Part shown: positions 22,064 to 33,792 of the stretch, piece after piece | Position numbering within the stretch: the stretch's first letter is position 1 | Layout: every line of letters begins with the position of its first letter | Assembly (NCBI RefSeq): GCF_009765865.1 | Contig: NZ_LMUQ01000061.1 | Coordinates: 328,752-373,711 of the forward strand | Reading direction: 5' to 3' | Origin: Acidisoma sp. L85 | GTDB taxonomy: Bacteria; Pseudomonadota; Alphaproteobacteria; Acetobacterales; Acetobacteraceae | Length of the DNA: 44,960 nucleotides | Translations under genes and position numbers: made by a program | Notes under the pieces: model-generated | Databases searched by the model: none | What the model was told of the DNA's origin: nothing | Seen by the model: the letters and a program-made list of their open reading frames with translations, nothing else

Positions 22064-22441
22064 ATGGAAAGACGACGTTCGGTGGCCTTTTCGCTGCTGG
22101 GAGCCGGGTTACTTCTGGCGTCGGTCCAGGTTGGACATGCCCAAATGAGCCCCTTTTGGAATAAGGCCCATGTAACCTTGAGTTCGGAAGACTACGACAT
22201 GCTCTTCCGGAGCGCGACGAAGGTTAACGAGGACCCCAACGCGAAAGTTGGCACGGCCGCGACCTGGGAAAATCCCAAGTCAACCAATTCCGGAATAACG
22301 ACAATCATGCGGATTTATACATCCGACAAAAGAACCTGCCATACGGTGCAGTATAAGGTCACCGTGACCAGGAGAAACATAACCCCGGACTACAACGTGA
22401 ACTGGTGCCTCACCAAGTCCGGATGGCGAATTGCAAGCTAG
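22064..22441 (+). CDS. small secreted protein, surface-antigen-like C-terminal domain
   Basis: 125 residues. A Sec signal peptide of about 26 residues ends VGHAQ. The mature part has GTAATWENPKSTNSG followed by RIYTSDKRTCHTVQYKV, resembling the outer-membrane domain of 17-kDa surface antigens (W-x-N-P, then a strand with one Cys). Two Cys (KRTCHT and VNWCLT) may form a disulfide. The start is the ATG at 22064 with GAGGA seven bases upstream. It is followed by the DUF4239 gene after 23 bp, so probably co-transcribed. Envelope role inferred only from the signal peptide. Confidence 0.7.
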   Translation: MERRRSVAFSLLGAGLLLASVQVGHAQMSPFWNKAHVTLSSEDYDMLFRSATKVNEDPNAKVGTAATWENPKSTNSGITTIMRIYTSDKRTCHTVQYKVTVTRRNITPDYNVNWCLTKSGWRIAS

Positions 22442-22464
22442 CTAGAGCGCGAAAGGAAGATTTC

Positions 22465-23250
22465 GTGATTCTTTGGCTAGCCAGTCTACCACCTTGGCAA
22501 TGTGCGTTCCTGGTGGTGGGCCTCACTACGGCTGGGTCAATGATCCTCACCGTCCTGGTTCGTCGCATCGTCGGGTTCGAACGTCTCGTCAGCAACAACG
22601 AGGTGGCGGGCTTCAAATTTGCCGTGCTTGGCGTGGTCTACGCCGTGCTGCTTGGATTCGCCGTAATCACCGTCTGGGAAAAGTTCAAGGCCGCCCAGGA
22701 GGCCGTTACCACGGAGTCCGCCGCCGCCGGTGCCATCTATCGCCTTACGGGCGGGATGGAAGTGGCCGATAGACCCGCGATTCAGGCTGGCATTCGGCGT
22801 TACCTGAATGCGGTGGTAACGCGCGAAGCGGATACCATGGCGGTCGGCCAGACCGATGTCTCAACCACTCTGGCACTTAACAACCTGTACAAAGCAACCT
22901 TGGCGGCGAAACCTGTCGACCTCGAGGATTCCGACGTATTTCAAGCCATGCTCGGTGAATTACGCGCGCTGGCCGAAGCGCGGCGAGAGAGGCTCGAACT
23001 CAGCCGTGGCGCTGTTCCTGACATCATGTGGTCTATCTTGTTCGGCGGAGCAGTTCTGAACATCGCCTTCGCTCTTTTCTTTGGCACAAAGAACGTCACG
23101 GCACAGGTCATCATGGCCGGAATGCTTGCGGCCGTGATCTTCATGGCGCTTTTCGTCATCATCAATATCAATTTTCCCTTCACTGGCGATGTGAAGGTCG
23201 CCTTGGAACCGCTGCAATACACGCTCGATAACTTTTCGTCGCAGGATTAG
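22465..23250 (+). CDS. DUF4239 (bestrophin-like) membrane protein
   Basis: 261 residues. Two hydrophobic helices near the N-terminus (FLVVGLTTAGSMILTVLV; FAVLGVVYAVLLGFAVITVW) and two near the C-terminus (IMWSILFGGAVLNIAFALFF; IMAGMLAAVIFMALFVI) flank a helical soluble region. EVAGFKFAVLGVVYAVLLGF is characteristic of DUF4239, related to bestrophin channels. The start is GTG after AAGGAAGA. It ends 71 bp inside the 3' end of the convergent DUF763 gene. Ion-channel activity is a guess from the fold relationship. Confidence 0.82.
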   Translation: MILWLASLPPWQCAFLVVGLTTAGSMILTVLVRRIVGFERLVSNNEVAGFKFAVLGVVYAVLLGFAVITVWEKFKAAQEAVTTESAAAGAIYRLTGGMEVADRPAIQAGIRRYLNAVVTREADTMAVGQTDVSTTLALNNLYKATLAAKPVDLEDSDVFQAMLGELRALAEARRERLELSRGAVPDIMWSILFGGAVLNIAFALFFGTKNVTAQVIMAGMLAAVIFMALFVIININFPFTGDVKVALEPLQYTLDNFSSQD

Positions 23251-25434: not shown

Positions 25435-27873
25435 TCAACTCGGCAGCCACCGGGACAACGCTGCCGCCAGTTCGGCGGAAACAAGGGGTTTGCTGACGAC
25501 TTCGCAAACCCCGGCGCCCGCCAGCTCATCGGCACCAAGCTCGCCTGCTGAGCAAGCCAATAGAATCGGCAGGTCCGGTGCCATACCATGCAGCTTTTTC
25601 GTGACCGCAAGAGCCTGAGCAATCGGCATGAGATGGCTGATCAGGGCTGCATCGAACCGCCGCGGCGTTAAACGGCATGCGCTGAGAGCCTGATCCGGAT
25701 CAGCGAATCCGATGGGCTCATAGCCGAGGGCGGCGACGATCTCCTCGTCATGCAGTAGCCGTGCATGATCATCGTCAATGACCAGGATGGCCTCGCCGCT
25801 GCCCTGCATCGTCCCAGCCTCATGCAAAATCCGGCTCGTTCCAGCAATCTGCGGCAGCCAAACCTCGAAAAGACTGCCCTCGCCCAACTGGCTCCGAACG
25901 TCGATCGCTCCGCCATGGTCCCGCACGATCTCCCGGACTGTCGCGAGACCAAGCCCATTTCCGCCCAGGCGGGTCGTGAAGAATGGCTCGAACAATCGAT
26001 CGAGCGTCTCGGCATCCATGCCGCGACCGGTATCTCGCACACTGATGCGAACATAACTCCCAGGGACAAGACAGCCATGGCTCAACTGTCGAGTGACCAA
26101 CACCCGATGGATCTCCGTCGTTACTTCCGCCGTGCAAGGGCAATCCATGGCCTGGGCCGCGTTGTTGCACAGATTCATGATGACCTGCTGCAGTTGCACG
26201 GGATCGCCGGACACGATCGCGGCCTCCGGTGTCGCGCCGATTACCAACCGAACATCCGGCTGAAGGGATGCCTGCAACAGCGATTGCGTTTCAGCCATGA
26301 GCGATCGCAGAGCGATCGTCCGGTGCGGCATGTTCTTGCGGCGGCCGAAGTTCAGGATCTGGTCGATCAGATCGCGCGCGCGCTCGGCCGCGTGGCGGAT
26401 GCCCTCAAGATTGCGCGCCAAACGGCTTTTCGGAAAGGCATGCGATTCCTCCATTTCGGTATAGCCGAGGATGGCGCCGATGATGTTGTTGAAGTTGTGG
26501 GCAACACCGCTCGCCAGCGCACCAATCGTCTCCATTCGCCGAGCCTGTTGCAGACTCGACTCAAGCCGCGTCCGATCACGTTCGAGCACCGCGTGTTCCA
26601 CCGCATTCGCGATCGGCTCGACCGCCATCCGCAGCAGGCCAGAGTCACTGGCGGGCCAGGTCATGGGCTTTCCAATGGCATCAAAACCGAGGGCGCCGCG
26701 GCTGCCATCGAGCCCGTTAGCCGGAATGCAAATCCAGCCGCGCAGCCCAGCGCCCTTGAGCGCAGATTTCTCCGCCCCCTCCGGCATTCGCTCGACGGAG
26801 GGAATGTAGATCACGCCTTCGGCCCGCGCGTCCCATTTGGCCACAGCCAAGCCTTGCATCGGCCACTCGGGCGGCCGCGCACGGCCGTCCCGGCACCACC
26901 AATAGGGTCGCAATTGTTCCGACGATCCAATGAAATAGGCCCGGTCCGCTCCAACCCATTCCGCAAGCGTCGCAAGCGCGGAGGTAACACGCCTGTCGAT
27001 CTCATCGGCCCTGCTATCGACGAAACCGATCGAGATAGCCGCAATCGCATGCTCGAACGTCGCCCTGCGCTGCAGCGCCCGGAAATGACGCCGGAGCTGT
27101 GAGCCGAGATAGACCAGCCAGGCAAGCAAAAGCATCGACGTCACATAGAGAAGTAGCTCGTAACGCCGGGCATTCGCTCGGGACGCCTGCTGGTGAGCAA
27201 GAACGCTGCTACGAACGGCCTCCAATCTTGCCGATCGCGGCAAGTCGTAGAGCGATCTCAACACTTGGTCTGTCGCCGGCAACAGGTCGTGAAGCAGCCG
27301 GCCATGCGCCAGAATACCGTCGACGAGGTCGTTGTCGGGGTCCACGGGTGCTTGCTGGGCAAGCCGGTTCAAAGCGGCCTCAACTTCTCCGGCCGATGCT
27401 ACCGACGTATCGAGCGTCAGATGAAGCATGGAAGTCGCCAAAACGGTCATCGCGGAAGCGAGCGGCCCTTCCTGCACGGCACTTCCGAATTTGCCACTCA
27501 GCAAACCAAAATAGGCGAGCGAATTCTGTAGCAGGGCATTGTCGCTTTTGAACTGTTCGGTCAGTTCATCTTGCTCCCCGACCATTTCCTCGAGTGGCCC
27601 AAGAACCTTCGGATCCACGCCCTGCTGGCGGAGTTGGCCGAGGAAGCCGTGTAGTGCTGTCATCCTCCGATTCACCGGATCATAGTCGCGCAGCAGGCCG
27701 GCGCGCGCATTAAGGATGTCCTGGCGCAGCGCGCTCTCCGTCACCGAGAATTTGGAGACCACCGAGAGCATTCCGTCGTATCGCGATGCTTGAGGATCCA
27801 TGCCGAGCAGCGACAGCCCTGACAGAACCAGCAGAAGCAGGGTGACAAAGGCGATGCTCGGAATCGTCTTCAT
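25435..27873 (-). CDS. VirA-like hybrid sensor histidine kinase with degenerate receiver
   Basis: 812 residues. TM1 (8-24), an all-helical periplasmic domain (about 30-238), TM2 (240-258), a GAF-like linker (about 270-430), then HisKA with His459 (GVAHNFNN), the ATPase N-box NLCNNAAQAM (567-576), DTGRGM (614-619) and GGNGLGLA. The C-terminal receiver (695-812) keeps the acidic pocket (DDD 700-702) and Lys795, but the acceptor position is Ser746 (ALISHLMP). This layout is that of Agrobacterium VirA. The ATG overlaps the stop of the peroxidase gene (ATGA), and a VirG-like regulator begins the operon. It probably phosphorylates that regulator in response to a periplasmic signal; the receiver can at most act as a non-phosphorylated modulator. 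Confidence 0.88.
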   Translation of the reverse strand: MKTIPSIAFVTLLLLVLSGLSLLGMDPQASRYDGMLSVVSKFSVTESALRQDILNARAGLLRDYDPVNRRMTALHGFLGQLRQQGVDPKVLGPLEEMVGEQDELTEQFKSDNALLQNSLAYFGLLSGKFGSAVQEGPLASAMTVLATSMLHLTLDTSVASAGEVEAALNRLAQQAPVDPDNDLVDGILAHGRLLHDLLPATDQVLRSLYDLPRSARLEAVRSSVLAHQQASRANARRYELLLYVTSMLLLAWLVYLGSQLRRHFRALQRRATFEHAIAAISIGFVDSRADEIDRRVTSALATLAEWVGADRAYFIGSSEQLRPYWWCRDGRARPPEWPMQGLAVAKWDARAEGVIYIPSVERMPEGAEKSALKGAGLRGWICIPANGLDGSRGALGFDAIGKPMTWPASDSGLLRMAVEPIANAVEHAVLERDRTRLESSLQQARRMETIGALASGVAHNFNNIIGAILGYTEMEESHAFPKSRLARNLEGIRHAAERARDLIDQILNFGRRKNMPHRTIALRSLMAETQSLLQASLQPDVRLVIGATPEAAIVSGDPVQLQQVIMNLCNNAAQAMDCPCTAEVTTEIHRVLVTRQLSHGCLVPGSYVRISVRDTGRGMDAETLDRLFEPFFTTRLGGNGLGLATVREIVRDHGGAIDVRSQLGEGSLFEVWLPQIAGTSRILHEAGTMQGSGEAILVIDDDHARLLHDEEIVAALGYEPIGFADPDQALSACRLTPRRFDAALISHLMPIAQALAVTKKLHGMAPDLPILLACSAGELGADELAGAGVCEVVSKPLVSAELAAALSRWLPS

Positions 27874-28883
27874 CGAGGTGCCGTCAATGGTCTGCCGTGA
27901 TAGACTCCGGTCAGACTGTCGAGAAATGCGGTGATCGCCTTGACTTGCTCATCAGAGAGGACACGATCGAGCTGGGCGTACCCCATCTTGCGCACGGCAA
28001 CCGCCAGTGTTGGAGCGCCTCCGTCGTGGAAATACGGCGCCGTTGTCGCGACATTGCGCAGGCTTGGTACCCGCAGGATTACCGGCCGACCCGCAAGGGG
28101 ATTGTTGAAAATGCCGCTCTGCTCGATCAGGTTGCCTCCGACATTGACGCCTTGATGGCAGGCGACGCAGCCGAACGACTTGAAGAGATGATAACCCTCG
28201 ACAGCCTCCTTCGAGAGCGCACCGCTATCGCCGCGAAGCCAATGGTCGAACGGGCTGTCCGGCGTGAGCAGTGACCGCTCGTAGGCGGCGATGGCATCGA
28301 TCAGACTCTGCCTATCCGGGCCGTGCCCATACACTGCTTCGAATTGCTGGTCGACGCCCTTTTCTTGCGTCAGCACCCGAACATCGGCGTCGACGCTCAT
28401 CGCCATGCCGCGCCGATCAGTGAGCGCCCCCCCAGCCTGATCCTCCAGGGTGCGAATATTGCCCTCCCAGTTCAGCCGGTAGTTGAGCGCGGCATTGAAG
28501 ACTGTCGGCGTATTGAACGTTACCGCAGCGCCGCCCGGCACTGTCTCGACCTTTTGGTCACTGGCCCCGTTGCTGTGGATGTCATGGCAGGACGAGCATG
28601 AAACCTTGCCGTCGCGGGAAAGTCGCGGATCACTGAACAGATCTTCGCCAAGCGCGATTTTGAGCGGATCAGCAACGGGAGGTTGCGGGACTGGGGAAAT
28701 GGGCTCGTTGCCCACGAAGAAGCCGGGGGTTGGGGCGCTGGGTGGAACCTGGGCTAGCGCATCGCCGGAGACCAACAACAACACGAGGGCAAGACCAGCC
28801 CCGCGCCACCTACTGCCTGTCGCGTCTCCGCCGATAGACTGATGTTCTGGTTTCATGGTCAGCACGCCGCGAGCGCGGCGCAT
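27870..28883 (-). CDS. diheme cytochrome c peroxidase (MauG/CcpA family), first copy
   Basis: A 337-residue periplasmic protein. An N-terminal signal peptide (hydrophobic LALVLLLVSG, cut near DALAQ) precedes two c-type heme sites, CSSCH at 96-100 and CVACH at 239-243. Family blocks include DLFSDPRLSRDG, LNWEGNIRTLEDQA and RVPSLRNVATTAPYFHDGG; Met300 in RKMGYAQ is a possible axial ligand. The start is the ATG at 28883 because GGAGA lies six bases before it; ATGs at 28907 and 28856 are alternatives. Members reduce H2O2 or oxidise protein or small substrates. Lying between the response regulator (38 bp gap) and the kinase (overlap), it may shape the signal that the kinase senses. Confidence 0.9.
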   Translation of the reverse strand: MRRARGVLTMKPEHQSIGGDATGSRWRGAGLALVLLLVSGDALAQVPPSAPTPGFFVGNEPISPVPQPPVADPLKIALGEDLFSDPRLSRDGKVSCSSCHDIHSNGASDQKVETVPGGAAVTFNTPTVFNAALNYRLNWEGNIRTLEDQAGGALTDRRGMAMSVDADVRVLTQEKGVDQQFEAVYGHGPDRQSLIDAIAAYERSLLTPDSPFDHWLRGDSGALSKEAVEGYHLFKSFGCVACHQGVNVGGNLIEQSGIFNNPLAGRPVILRVPSLRNVATTAPYFHDGGAPTLAVAVRKMGYAQLDRVLSDEQVKAITAFLDSLTGVYHGRPLTAPR

Positions 28884-28921
28884 GACGTCTCCATCCAGCG
28901 ACGGCATCGTTGCGGCGGTGC

Positions 28922-29674
28922 CTAATATTGCTGAACCGGCAAGCTGAAGCGATAGCCGACGCCGCGCTCAGTTTGAATCGCGCGCGGCGCACTCGGATCA
29001 GCCTCCAGCTTTCGCCGCAGCCGCAAAACCTGCACGTCGATGCTGCGATCGAAGACATCCTCATGCACACGCGTCGCCTGCAGCAGATGCTCGCGCGTCA
29101 GAGGCCGCCCCGGCGCATTCAGGAAGGCGACCAGCAGGGCATATTCGCCCTTGGTCAGAGGCACCGTCGCACCTTCGGGATTGAGAAGGCGGTGCGCCCG
29201 CAGGTCCAGTTCCCAGCCTTCGAACCTGAAACCACCTGAGGCAGGCTCATGCTCCGATGCCGCTCGACCGAAATCGTGGCGCCGGAGCACCGCGCGAACC
29301 CGCGCCAGCAACTCGCGCAGCCCAAACGGCTTCGTGACGTAATCGTCCGCGCCGAGCTCCAATCCGACAACCCGGTCGATCTCGTCGCGGCGATGGCCCG
29401 TCATGATGATCACCGGCACATCCGAGCGCGACCGGATGTCACGCAGCACATCGAGCCCGTCATCCTTGTCGAGCCTGAGATCAAGAAGCACCAGGTTCGG
29501 CTCCCGCGCCGCAAATTGCCGCGACATTTCCTCGCGGTTGCTGGCCGACAGAACCCGCATGCTCTGCCCCTCTAAATAATTCACCAGCATCCGGCGAAGC
29601 TCCGCATCATCGTCCACCACGAGGATACGGGGCTGTGACAAGTCAGCGGCGCCGGAATTGCCAAGTTTCAGCAT
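28922..29674 (-). CDS. VirG-like OmpR-family response regulator
   Basis: 250 residues. The receiver domain has DDD at 21-23, phospho-acceptor Asp65 (LVLLDLRL), Thr92 and Lys115. A winged helix of the OmpR type fills about 145-248. The end, RLRRKLEADPSAPRAIQT followed by RGVGYRF, and the stretch FEGWELDLRAHRL closely resemble Agrobacterium VirG, the partner of VirA. It is the first gene of the three-gene operon with the peroxidase and VirA-like kinase, and transcribed away from a 604-bp intergenic region that probably holds its promoter and targets. Confidence 0.92.
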   Translation of the reverse strand: MLKLGNSGAADLSQPRILVVDDDAELRRMLVNYLEGQSMRVLSASNREEMSRQFAAREPNLVLLDLRLDKDDGLDVLRDIRSRSDVPVIIMTGHRRDEIDRVVGLELGADDYVTKPFGLRELLARVRAVLRRHDFGRAASEHEPASGGFRFEGWELDLRAHRLLNPEGATVPLTKGEYALLVAFLNAPGRPLTREHLLQATRVHEDVFDRSIDVQVLRLRRKLEADPSAPRAIQTERGVGYRFSLPVQQY

Positions 29675-30278: not shown

Positions 30279-31670
30279 GTGAAGATAATTCTCGCTTCGA
30301 ACCCATTCATGGGACACCTCAACCCGCTTCTGGCAATCGGACGTATCTTGATTGCCGAGGGTCATCAGGTTGCGGGCCTCACAGCTACCATTATGCGGAA
30401 GCGCATAGAGGCAATCGGCGCGACTTTCTATCCGTTCCCCGGCCGCGCCGATCAGGATCTGAGCGATTTGACGGCTATATATCCGGAATTCGGCCTCATG
30501 CCCCCCGGACTGGAGAAGGCCCGCTTCAGTGTGGAGCGCCTGTTTATCGATATGATTCCCGGGCAGTACGAGGGCCTCATGCAGGTTCTGAGCGAATTTC
30601 CGGCGGATCTTATCATCGCCGAAAATCTCTTCATGGGTGCCCTTCCCATGTTGCTCGGTCCACGCGCGAAGCGTCCTCCCATCATTCTGTGTGGCACGAC
30701 CTACCTTTTCTGGCATCGCAACGATGGCGTGCCCATTCTCGGTGGCTTTCCTATGGCGGCCGAGAATGCCCGGCGCGAGCAATTCGAAGCGGCATCCGAG
30801 GAGTTCGAAGCGGTCTTCATGGAGCCTGCCAACCGCTCAGCGAATGAATGCCTGAGGGGAATAGGTTGCGGACCACTTCCCACGAATATCTTCGATTCGC
30901 TCGTTACCCTGCCCGATGCGTATCTACAGCTTACGACGCCAAACTTCGAATTTCCCCGTGCAGACCTACCGGACTCCGTGCGGTTCATCGGGCCGCTGCC
31001 GATCATGGCAAAGCAAGCGCCCCTCCCCCCATGGGCCGATGAGCTGGATGGCTCTCGCAAAGTCGTTCTCGTCACACAGGGAACAGTCGCGAACTATGAT
31101 TTCAGCCATCTGGTGGCGCCGGCGCTGGCGGCACTCGCCGATGACCCGGAGTTGCTTGTGGTTGTCACGACCGGCGGCCGGCCGACCGACGCGGTTCCCG
31201 GTCGGATCCCCGCCAATGCGCGGCTGGCGTCATATCTGCCGTTTGAGTGGTTGCTCCCGAAAATAGATGTGTTTGTCACAAACGGTGGCTACGGAAGCGT
31301 CAATCAGGCGCTGAGTTTTGGCGTCCCCCTCGTCACCGCCGGGATGACCGAGGACAAGGCAGATGTGAATGCGCGTGTCGCCTGGTCGGGCGTCGGCATC
31401 AATCTCGAGACCAACGAACCGACGGCAGAGGCGCTACGTCGGGCCGTGCGAATCGTTCTGGGCGACCCCGAATACCAGAGGCGGGCTTCGCATATTGCCA
31501 ACGAGATGCGACAGATCGATACGAAGTCGAAGTTTTTGCAGATTGTCGACGAGGTTTCGCGACCAACGGCTGAAACTCGCTTCCCCTTGGGCATGACGGG
31601 GCGCGGTGCATTCGCGGACCGGCACAGAGCCACGTTCAGCCGGGACAAGAGCATCGTCCAACTTCGCTGA
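30279..31670 (+). CDS. UGT/MGT-like glycosyltransferase (GT-B fold, GT1 family)
   Basis: 463 residues. The N-terminal Rossmann half starts MKIILASNPFMGHLNPLLAI, with the catalytic His of GT1 enzymes in GHLNP. The C-terminal donor-binding half has VVLVTQGTVANYDFSHLV, SYLPFEWLLPKIDVFVTNGG and GGYGSVNQALSFGVPLV, the NDP-sugar signature. Members attach a sugar to lipids, carotenoids or small aglycones in the cytosol. The start is GTG behind GGAG. The 40-residue C-terminal extension is hydrophilic and not typical. It stands alone, divergent from the VirG-like operon, so it could be one of its targets; acceptor unknown. Confidence 0.88.
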   Translation: MKIILASNPFMGHLNPLLAIGRILIAEGHQVAGLTATIMRKRIEAIGATFYPFPGRADQDLSDLTAIYPEFGLMPPGLEKARFSVERLFIDMIPGQYEGLMQVLSEFPADLIIAENLFMGALPMLLGPRAKRPPIILCGTTYLFWHRNDGVPILGGFPMAAENARREQFEAASEEFEAVFMEPANRSANECLRGIGCGPLPTNIFDSLVTLPDAYLQLTTPNFEFPRADLPDSVRFIGPLPIMAKQAPLPPWADELDGSRKVVLVTQGTVANYDFSHLVAPALAALADDPELLVVVTTGGRPTDAVPGRIPANARLASYLPFEWLLPKIDVFVTNGGYGSVNQALSFGVPLVTAGMTEDKADVNARVAWSGVGINLETNEPTAEALRRAVRIVLGDPEYQRRASHIANEMRQIDTKSKFLQIVDEVSRPTAETRFPLGMTGRGAFADRHRATFSRDKSIVQLR

Positions 31671-32204: not shown

Positions 32205-33194
32205 TCACGAGGGAGCCTTCAAAGATTTGCCTTGATACGAGCCGGTAAGGCTGCCGAGAAATGCGACGATTGCCTTGATTTGCCCGGCCGATAGCGTCCG
32301 GCCTAGCTGGGCGTATCCCATCCGGCTCACCGCTCTATCCAGGGTAGCGGCGCTCCCGTTGTGGAAATAGGGAGCGGTGACCGCAACGTTCCGCAAACTC
32401 GGCACCCGCAGGTCTATCGCCTGCTTATGAAGCAGTCCTTCAAAAATGCCCGTCCGCTCGAACAGATTGCCGCCAACGTTGACCCCCTGATGACAAGACG
32501 CGCAGCCCAGCGACTTGAAGAGCCCATAGCCGACCTGTTCCTCGTCGGAAAGGGCCTCCTTGTCGCCCAGCAGCCAGCGATCGAAGCGGCTGCCCGGTGT
32601 CAGCAAAGACCGCTCATAGGTGGCAATCGCATCCAAAAGATTTGCGCGGTTAGGCCCCTCTCCATACACCAGCTCGAATTGAATTCTCAGTGCCTTGTCA
32701 TCCGCTATGCGTTCAAGGGCATTATCCGGACTCGATGCCATGATGCGCGGATCGCTCAGGGATTGGGCAGCCTGATCCTCTAGCGAAGCGGCATTGCCCT
32801 CCCAGTTCTGCCGAAAGCTCAGCGCTGCATTGAAAACGGTATTTGTATTGAGCGGAATGAACGACCCGTCCGGCGCTCGATCGAACCGAGTTGCGCCAGC
32901 ACCGTTCGTCGTCACGTCATGGCAGGATGAACAGGCACGAGTTCCATCGCCGGAGAGGCGCGGATCACTGAAGAGTTCCGCCCCGAGCTTGACCGTGCGC
33001 GAATCAACGGAGAGCGTTTGCGGAATCGGGGTAATGGGCTCGTGATCCGCGGGAATATCGACGTTTGGGTGCGTTGACCGGGCATGCGCATGGGCTTCGC
33101 TCGCAACCAGCGACAGTCCCAGCAGCAGCCAGGTACGCCAGCGGCACGAGCCCTCTCTGCGTCGGCCGACACCGGCCGTCTCACCTATTTCCAC
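32205..33194 (-). CDS. diheme cytochrome c peroxidase (MauG/CcpA family), second copy
   Basis: A 329-residue periplasmic protein with a signal peptide (TWLLLGLSLVASEAHA) and heme sites CSSCH (88-92) and CASCH (231-235). It is clearly a paralogue of the copy at 27870-28883: RVPSLRNVAVTAPYFHNG and RMGYAQLGRTLSAGQIKAI align almost residue by residue. The start is GTG behind GGGGGAAC. It is not in the two-component operon but about 3.3 kb from that copy, with its own 304-bp upstream region. Likely role: H2O2 reduction or protein/small-molecule oxidation in the periplasm. Confidence 0.9.
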   Translation of the reverse strand: MEIGETAGVGRRREGSCRWRTWLLLGLSLVASEAHAHARSTHPNVDIPADHEPITPIPQTLSVDSRTVKLGAELFSDPRLSGDGTRACSSCHDVTTNGAGATRFDRAPDGSFIPLNTNTVFNAALSFRQNWEGNAASLEDQAAQSLSDPRIMASSPDNALERIADDKALRIQFELVYGEGPNRANLLDAIATYERSLLTPGSRFDRWLLGDKEALSDEEQVGYGLFKSLGCASCHQGVNVGGNLFERTGIFEGLLHKQAIDLRVPSLRNVAVTAPYFHNGSAATLDRAVSRMGYAQLGRTLSAGQIKAIVAFLGSLTGSYQGKSLKAPS

Positions 33195-33498: not shown

Positions 33499-33792
33499 AT
33501 GCCAACTCAACCTCTCAATCTAACCTCTTTCGCGCGGTCCGAGGTCTCTCGGGGCGAGCCGCCTCGTGGATCATATAGCAAGACAAGCTCGACAGGCACG
33601 CCTCACGATCGCAGGGCTTTGGCGACGGCCTGGGCTTTTGTTTGCATGTGCGCGAGGAAATATCATTGTTTCATGCGGATGAGGCGAGCGGCTGCGGAGC
33701 TCAACGGTCTCAGCGATCACGCGTTGAAGGACATCGGGGTTGCGCGCAACGAGATCGAGTTTCGTGTGAGACAGGCTGCACGCCGCGAATAG
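33499..33792 (+). CDS. DUF1127 domain small protein
   Basis: 97 residues. The C-terminal 40 residues carry the DUF1127 pattern: RRAAAELNGLSDHALKDIGV followed by ARNEIEFRVRQAARR. The N-terminal half is Ser/Thr/Pro-rich and longer than usual for the family. Some alphaproteobacterial DUF1127 proteins bind RNA and affect sRNA turnover and phosphate or carbon metabolism. The ribosome binding site AGGAGA lies five bases upstream of the ATG. A single gene with its own promoter region. Confidence 0.82.
   Translation: MPTQPLNLTSFARSEVSRGEPPRGSYSKTSSTGTPHDRRALATAWAFVCMCARKYHCFMRMRRAAAELNGLSDHALKDIGVARNEIEFRVRQAARRE

Follow-up and report, generated by a model that had tools for sequence, protein, structure and literature searches.

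A diheme peroxidase homologue is genetically coupled to the DAHL domain of VirA-like kinases and may serve as its periplasmic sensing partner

The DNA analysed here, a stretch of 44,960 nucleotides from Acidisoma sp. L85 (contig NZ_LMUQ01000061.1, positions 328,752 to 373,711; hereafter the window), carries a minus-strand operon at positions 25435-29674. According to the list of open reading frames (ORFs), a VirG-like response regulator is followed there by a diheme protein of the CCP_MauG family, named PER in this work, and by a VirA-like hybrid histidine kinase (Table 1). An earlier note, made from the letters alone, had described three minus-strand genes in this order, with a cytochrome c peroxidase bearing two CxxCH sites in the middle and the last two genes sharing ATGA; the ORFs, the overlap and both CxxCH sites were confirmed. 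The regulator, separated from PER by 14 nt, combines Response_reg and Trans_reg_C domains, and PER matches CCP_MauG (149.9 bits) and Cytochrom_C in Pfam. By eye, the N-terminus of PER reads as a signal-like stretch ending in ALA-Q, and the true start may lie further in. The DAHL domain of the kinase (PF19443) scores 149.4 bits, above the curated cut-off of 38, and the degenerate receiver has a Ser at the usual Asp position, in FDAALISHLMP. Many Bradyrhizobium relatives read FDAALVCHLP at this place. Of the VirA and VirG labels given earlier, that of the kinase holds, with 775 bits against a curated cut-off of 647 in the NCBIfam model 'VirA-like sensor kinase' (NF010411), whereas that of the regulator does not, as its best NCBIfam model is VirG (NF010430) at 243.7 bits, under the curated cut-off of 344. 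The whole genome contains two CCP_MauG genes, PER and a second one designated PER2, and one DAHL gene, all inside the window.

Table 1. Features of the operon and of its surroundings in the window
Feature	Position	Strand	Basis
OmpR-family, VirG-like response regulator, 250 aa	28922..29674	-	ORF, Pfam, NCBIfam
PER, diheme CCP_MauG protein, 345 aa counted from the first ATG	27870..28907	-	ORF, Pfam
First CxxCH of PER, residues 104-108, P-heme	28584..28598	-	Alignment
Gly167 of PER, at the distal-Glu position of catalytic peroxidases	28407..28409	-	Alignment to 1iqc, PER alignment
Second CxxCH of PER, residues 247-251, E-heme, start of CHQGxxxGGN	28155..28169	-	Alignment
Met308 of PER, aligned with the E-heme Met ligand	27984..27986	-	Alignment
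ATGA, PER stop and kinase start overlapping	27870..27873	-	Read from sequence
VirA-like hybrid histidine kinase, 812 aa	25435..27873	-	ORF, Pfam, NCBIfam
Periplasmic DAHL domain, kinase residues 30-238; conserved D65, K109, N117, S118, H190	27160..27786	-	Pfam, alignment
HisKA, kinase residues 452-512	26338..26520	-	Pfam
HATPase_c, kinase residues 556-675	25849..26208	-	Pfam
Degenerate receiver, kinase residues 696-806	25456..25788	-	Weak Pfam match, 23.2 bits (cut-off 30.2)
Glycosyltransferase, divergent, EryCIII/UDPGT-like, candidate target	30279..31670	+	Pfam, related loci
PER2, second diheme protein, in PER's clade, no adjoining DAHL gene, Ile at the distal-Glu position	32205..33194	-	Pfam, alignment, tree

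DAHL genes were sampled by searches of genomes of the family, class, order and phylum, and the surrounding DNA was then inspected. With the window excluded, 81 DAHL genes reach the Pfam cut-off, and PER lies directly upstream and on the same strand for 70 of them, its stop codon 63-210 nt ahead of the DAHL domain. The gene order is thus conserved in relatives, the opposite of what the earlier note had named as grounds for abandoning its idea. Four of the 11 places without PER have less than 2 kb of upstream DNA, leaving PER at 70 of 77 (58 genomes), and among DAHL genes of at least 65 bits with upstream DNA to judge, PER is present in 62 of 63. The seven PER-less genes with enough upstream DNA are L113, L139, L168, L169, L170, L176 and L182. 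The 70 pairs span 17 families as labelled and are not independent, since many come from a single family (f184); in one of them (L106) PER is split over two frames. Five DAHL places below the cut-off (L183-L187) were excluded from the counts, one of which (L184) has a piece of PER upstream. A DAHL gene occurs in one of five genomes of the genus and in six of 200 sampled genomes of the family, and the system is therefore patchy. In another phylum, that of Desulfocicer (via G1084), DAHL was found above the cut-off in one of 198 genomes, in a GGDEF protein by sequence, with PER upstream and overlapping by 4 nt. Five DAHL-PER pairs (L124, L127, L131, L172 and L179) were seen in a single genome, G844.

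The two genes are also closely joined. Of the 31 related loci L004-L034, 29 lie on contigs that extend to PER, and without exception their PER stop overlaps the kinase start as RTGA (23 ATGA, 6 GTGA), a recurrence which argues that the overlap is not due to chance. A single fused chain of PER and kinase was ruled out, given that the frames differ in all 29 loci. On plasmids of Skermanella, Bradyrhizobium, Indioceanicola, Rhizobium and Sinorhizobium, a gene for a cytochrome c peroxidase or a c-type cytochrome stands right before the kinase. In a reverse search for PER, all 55 best matches adjoin a DAHL gene, a clean top of the list that is biased because the search model was derived from 31 linked PERs, and matches distant from DAHL appear from place 56 on. 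The 14 DAHL-distant loci obtained in this way all keep the Gln/Pro/Glu spacing of the distal side, and none has the full E-heme motif CHQGxxxGGN or a DAHL match. At L282 (3970-7432), the gene of a PER carrying CHQGTNIGGG runs into that of a hybrid kinase in which Pfam finds no DAHL; the two may represent another type of PER-sensor pair.

The earlier note had placed the coupling at the periplasmic sensor domain of the kinase, and our results agree, as the link to PER follows DAHL through changed outputs and regulator placement. In 44 DAHL proteins (that of the window and 43 of the 77), the outputs comprise HATPase in 42, receiver in 28, Hpt in 11, GGDEF in 2 and EAL in 1. Of the 44 VirA-like loci with a regulator in view, 38 have it upstream, 4 in divergent orientation and 2 downstream, and PER is always right before the kinase. 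Over 81 pairs, once the kinase core is accounted for, the distances between PERs follow those between DAHL domains with a partial r of 0.45 (half-samples 0.33-0.55); for the core, with DAHL accounted for, the value is 0.18 (half-samples 0.10-0.26). A thinned tree of 105 PERs, which is a quick tree without bootstrap, splits at one branch (SH-aLRT 99) into a group of all 91 DAHL-linked PERs with PER2 and a group of 13 unlinked PERs from the same genomes. The conserved DAHL residues (Table 1) are mostly lost where PER is absent; the conserved columns include no invariant Cys, Trp or Tyr (Tyr64 in 90 of 106). Single-chain structure prediction gives DAHL a fold that seems to resemble McpS, LytS and TorS. 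The true unit is PER together with DAHL, the periplasmic domain of the kinase.

Target genes are frequent members of two-component operons, so PER could be a mere regulated output or passenger of the operon, with the kinase reading something else by DAHL or its linker. Besides this habit of target genes, PER2, unlinked yet nearby, and the existence of PER-less DAHL kinases weigh on that side and against a sensing role of PER. The expectation that PER-less DAHL genes keeping all conserved residues have PER elsewhere in the genome failed in both metagenome-assembled genomes concerned (G959 and G988). However, PER stays by DAHL when output, regulator placement and even phylum change, its gene overlaps that of the kinase, and the proteins that go without it have mostly parted with the conserved DAHL residues. 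We consider a passenger role unlikely.

The heme sites of PER were compared in an alignment of 104 DAHL-linked and 14 unlinked proteins, whose rows were chosen for two CxxCH, so that the invariance of these is partly due to selection; L106 and L006 were left out by the filters for CxxCH, length or motif. In the linked PERs, two residues never vary: the Met that aligns with the E-heme ligand and the Trp lying between the two hemes. The E-heme motif CHQGxxxGGN is almost as constant, with its Q in 103, its three conserved G after the Q in 104, 104 and 101, and its N in 104, the Q and N being found in 3 and 6 of the unlinked ones, respectively. The loop His that caps the P-heme of classical enzymes occurs in one of the 104 and is absent from the window PER. 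The distal Glu is present in none of the 47 rows of the VirA-like clade, in 47 of the 57 other linked rows and in 11 of the 14 unlinked ones, and the full Gln/Pro/Glu triad in 0/47, 37/57 and 11/14. In the 47 clade rows, among which two contigs are doubled (L012 = L101, L023 = L108), the Glu position holds Ile (22), Thr (11), Leu (9), Gly (3), Asn (1) or Val (1). The window PER keeps Gln157 and has Ala161 at the Pro position besides its Gly at the Glu position; a pairwise alignment to the solved structure 1iqc gave the same register.

The E-heme axial ligand of MauG is reportedly Tyr294, to go by the title of a paper. The window PER has Met at the aligned place and scores 121.8 bits with the MauG model (TIGR03791), under the curated cut-off of 443.85, so the MauG type suggested for it earlier was not borne out; the MbnH family di-heme enzyme model (TIGR04039) gives 120.2 bits, under its cut-off of 362.85. 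PER shares two CxxCH and the E-heme Met with bacterial cytochrome c peroxidases, and lacks their combination of distal Gln and Glu. In one bacterial cytochrome c peroxidase (BCCP), Glu118 and Gln108 have been proposed to take part in O-O cleavage, and the single variants described are inactive (PMC10094543). Gln, Pro and Glu are reported as conserved across BCCP, MauG and BthA (PMC6405878). The PER of the window's clade looks catalytically dead. Since the distal Glu is gone in 47 of 47 rows while the heme sites and the Met ligand are kept, a sensing pseudo-peroxidase appears likelier than an enzyme making or removing a signal. In the remote DAHL-linked PERs that retain the distal Glu, catalysis is plausible.

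The earlier note had left it open whether the peroxidase produces the signal, removes it or passes it on. A working enzyme that generates or clears what the kinase reads, such as peroxide or an oxidised phenol, would suit the presence of both heme sites in the CCP_MauG fold and of the distal Glu in most remote linked PERs, points that tell against pure sensing. Nevertheless, the loss of the Glu and of the triad throughout the clade, together with the inactivity of the published single distal-residue variants, makes this enzyme improbable there, even if a chemistry independent of the distal Glu is conceivable. Relay or sensing thus fits the clade best, and making or removing is weakened. PER might also act in the manner of MauG on the kinase itself, oxidising DAHL residues as a covalent redox switch. 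The CCP_MauG homology and the invariant Trp between the hemes would fit such a role, rather than sensing; but MauG and BCCP chemistry uses the distal Glu that clade PERs are missing (PMC10094543, PMC6405878), and the conserved DAHL columns offer no invariant Cys, Trp or Tyr. This switch is very hard to credit.

Given the gene coupling, the dedicated PER clade, the residue patterns and the apparent fold resemblance, we think it probable that PER and DAHL form one periplasmic sensing unit, in which the PER of this clade senses as a pseudo-peroxidase. We infer that PER is exported, loaded with two c-type hemes and docked on the DAHL domain, which is helical. A change in heme redox or ligand state would then alter the shape of PER, by analogy with classical peroxidases on reduction of the E-heme. 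The most likely trigger would be periplasmic electron carriers that reduce the His/Met E-heme, or a small molecule bound at the open P-heme. DAHL would relay the change along the membrane helix, so that it reaches first the kinase and then the regulator, with a sign, activating or not, that is as conjectural as the signal.

The kinase family also bears on the origin of VirA. The rhizobial VirA of L192 adjoins virD4, has DAHL at 100.7 bits and no PER, and the VirG of that locus passes the VirG model (441.4 bits). In the kinase tree, which took in only three VirA, this protein and two Sinorhizobium VirA nest inside PER-bearing kinases, closest to kinases from plasmids of Rhizobium and Sinorhizobium in which PER is retained (support 100/98). 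In one of these plasmid loci (L191), the regulator passes the VirG model (394.7 bits) and PER lies between regulator and kinase. Because the PER-less VirA of the vir region nests inside a PER-bearing clade, the VirA ancestor probably had PER, and its loss in the VirA line would be the simplest reading of the tree.

As for the neighbouring genes, PER2 lies 3.3 kb from the operon, its shortest tree path leads to PER, and it too is without the distal Glu. A DUF1127 protein is encoded close to it (33499-33792), and in Bradyrhizobium loci a DUF1127 gene is placed between regulator and PER (L008:6205-6816). Upstream of the regulator, Bradyrhizobium loci have a gene with two cytochrome c domains (L034:3797-4909), a possible electron donor. 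A homologue of the window's glycosyltransferase (514-581 bits) is found near the operon in 18 of 33 related loci, 17 of Bradyrhizobium and one of an Acetobacteraceae metagenome-assembled genome; the gene is a candidate target. A scan of the window for vir boxes (at most 2 mismatches to the consensus) gave 6 matches against 11.0 expected and thus no support. The regulator/glycosyltransferase gap and the region upstream of PER2 have no common words of at least 10 nt, and the repeats within them are chance-like. A bestrophin-like membrane protein (PF14023) is encoded on the plus strand at 22405-23250.

TorS and LytS, which have a helical periplasmic sensor domain that seems similar to the predicted DAHL fold, were solved with a periplasmic partner bound, according to the titles of the structure entries. 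Their partners, TorT and XylFII, are binding proteins of other folds and no heme proteins, in contrast to PER, the putative partner of DAHL. Bacterial cytochrome c peroxidases such as 1iqc share the fold, the two CxxCH and the E-heme Met with the window PER, which differs by lacking the distal Glu, the Pro and the P-heme switch His, and by the overlap of its gene with that of a kinase. The heme proteins H-NOX and NosP have other folds and are cytoplasmic. In H-NOX/HnoK and NosP/NahK, a separate sensor protein controls a kinase (PMC8846402), the partner here being instead a predicted exported c-type diheme protein. Agrobacterium VirA, of the same kinase family by NCBIfam model, works with the sugar-binding ChvE, a periplasmic protein that acts via the periplasmic region of the kinase (PMC9149312). 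In the present system, by contrast, the kinase is encoded together with its putative partner, a diheme protein, and the regulator falls outside the VirG model; rhizobial VirA of the vir region (L192, L195 and L196) have no PER neighbour.

In the literature searched, which leaves preprints and most subscription papers outside, a table of PMC8998981 held the sole mention of DAHL, and no account of the PER-DAHL pair was among the matches listed. DAHL, without a dedicated study in that literature, gains a likely partner and a probable role. It is an evenly balanced proposal that a widespread module with kinase or cyclic-di-GMP outputs exists, its DAHL domain served by a periplasmic diheme c-type protein as dedicated sensor subunit, and that one catalytically dead branch gave rise to VirA, which lost the heme protein and uses ChvE. 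If true, the PER-DAHL unit would parallel, in the periplasm, the heme co-sensors already known for kinases. Phenol sensing by VirA has been called an outstanding question (PMC9149312), and VirA would gain a testable ancestor with a heme partner.
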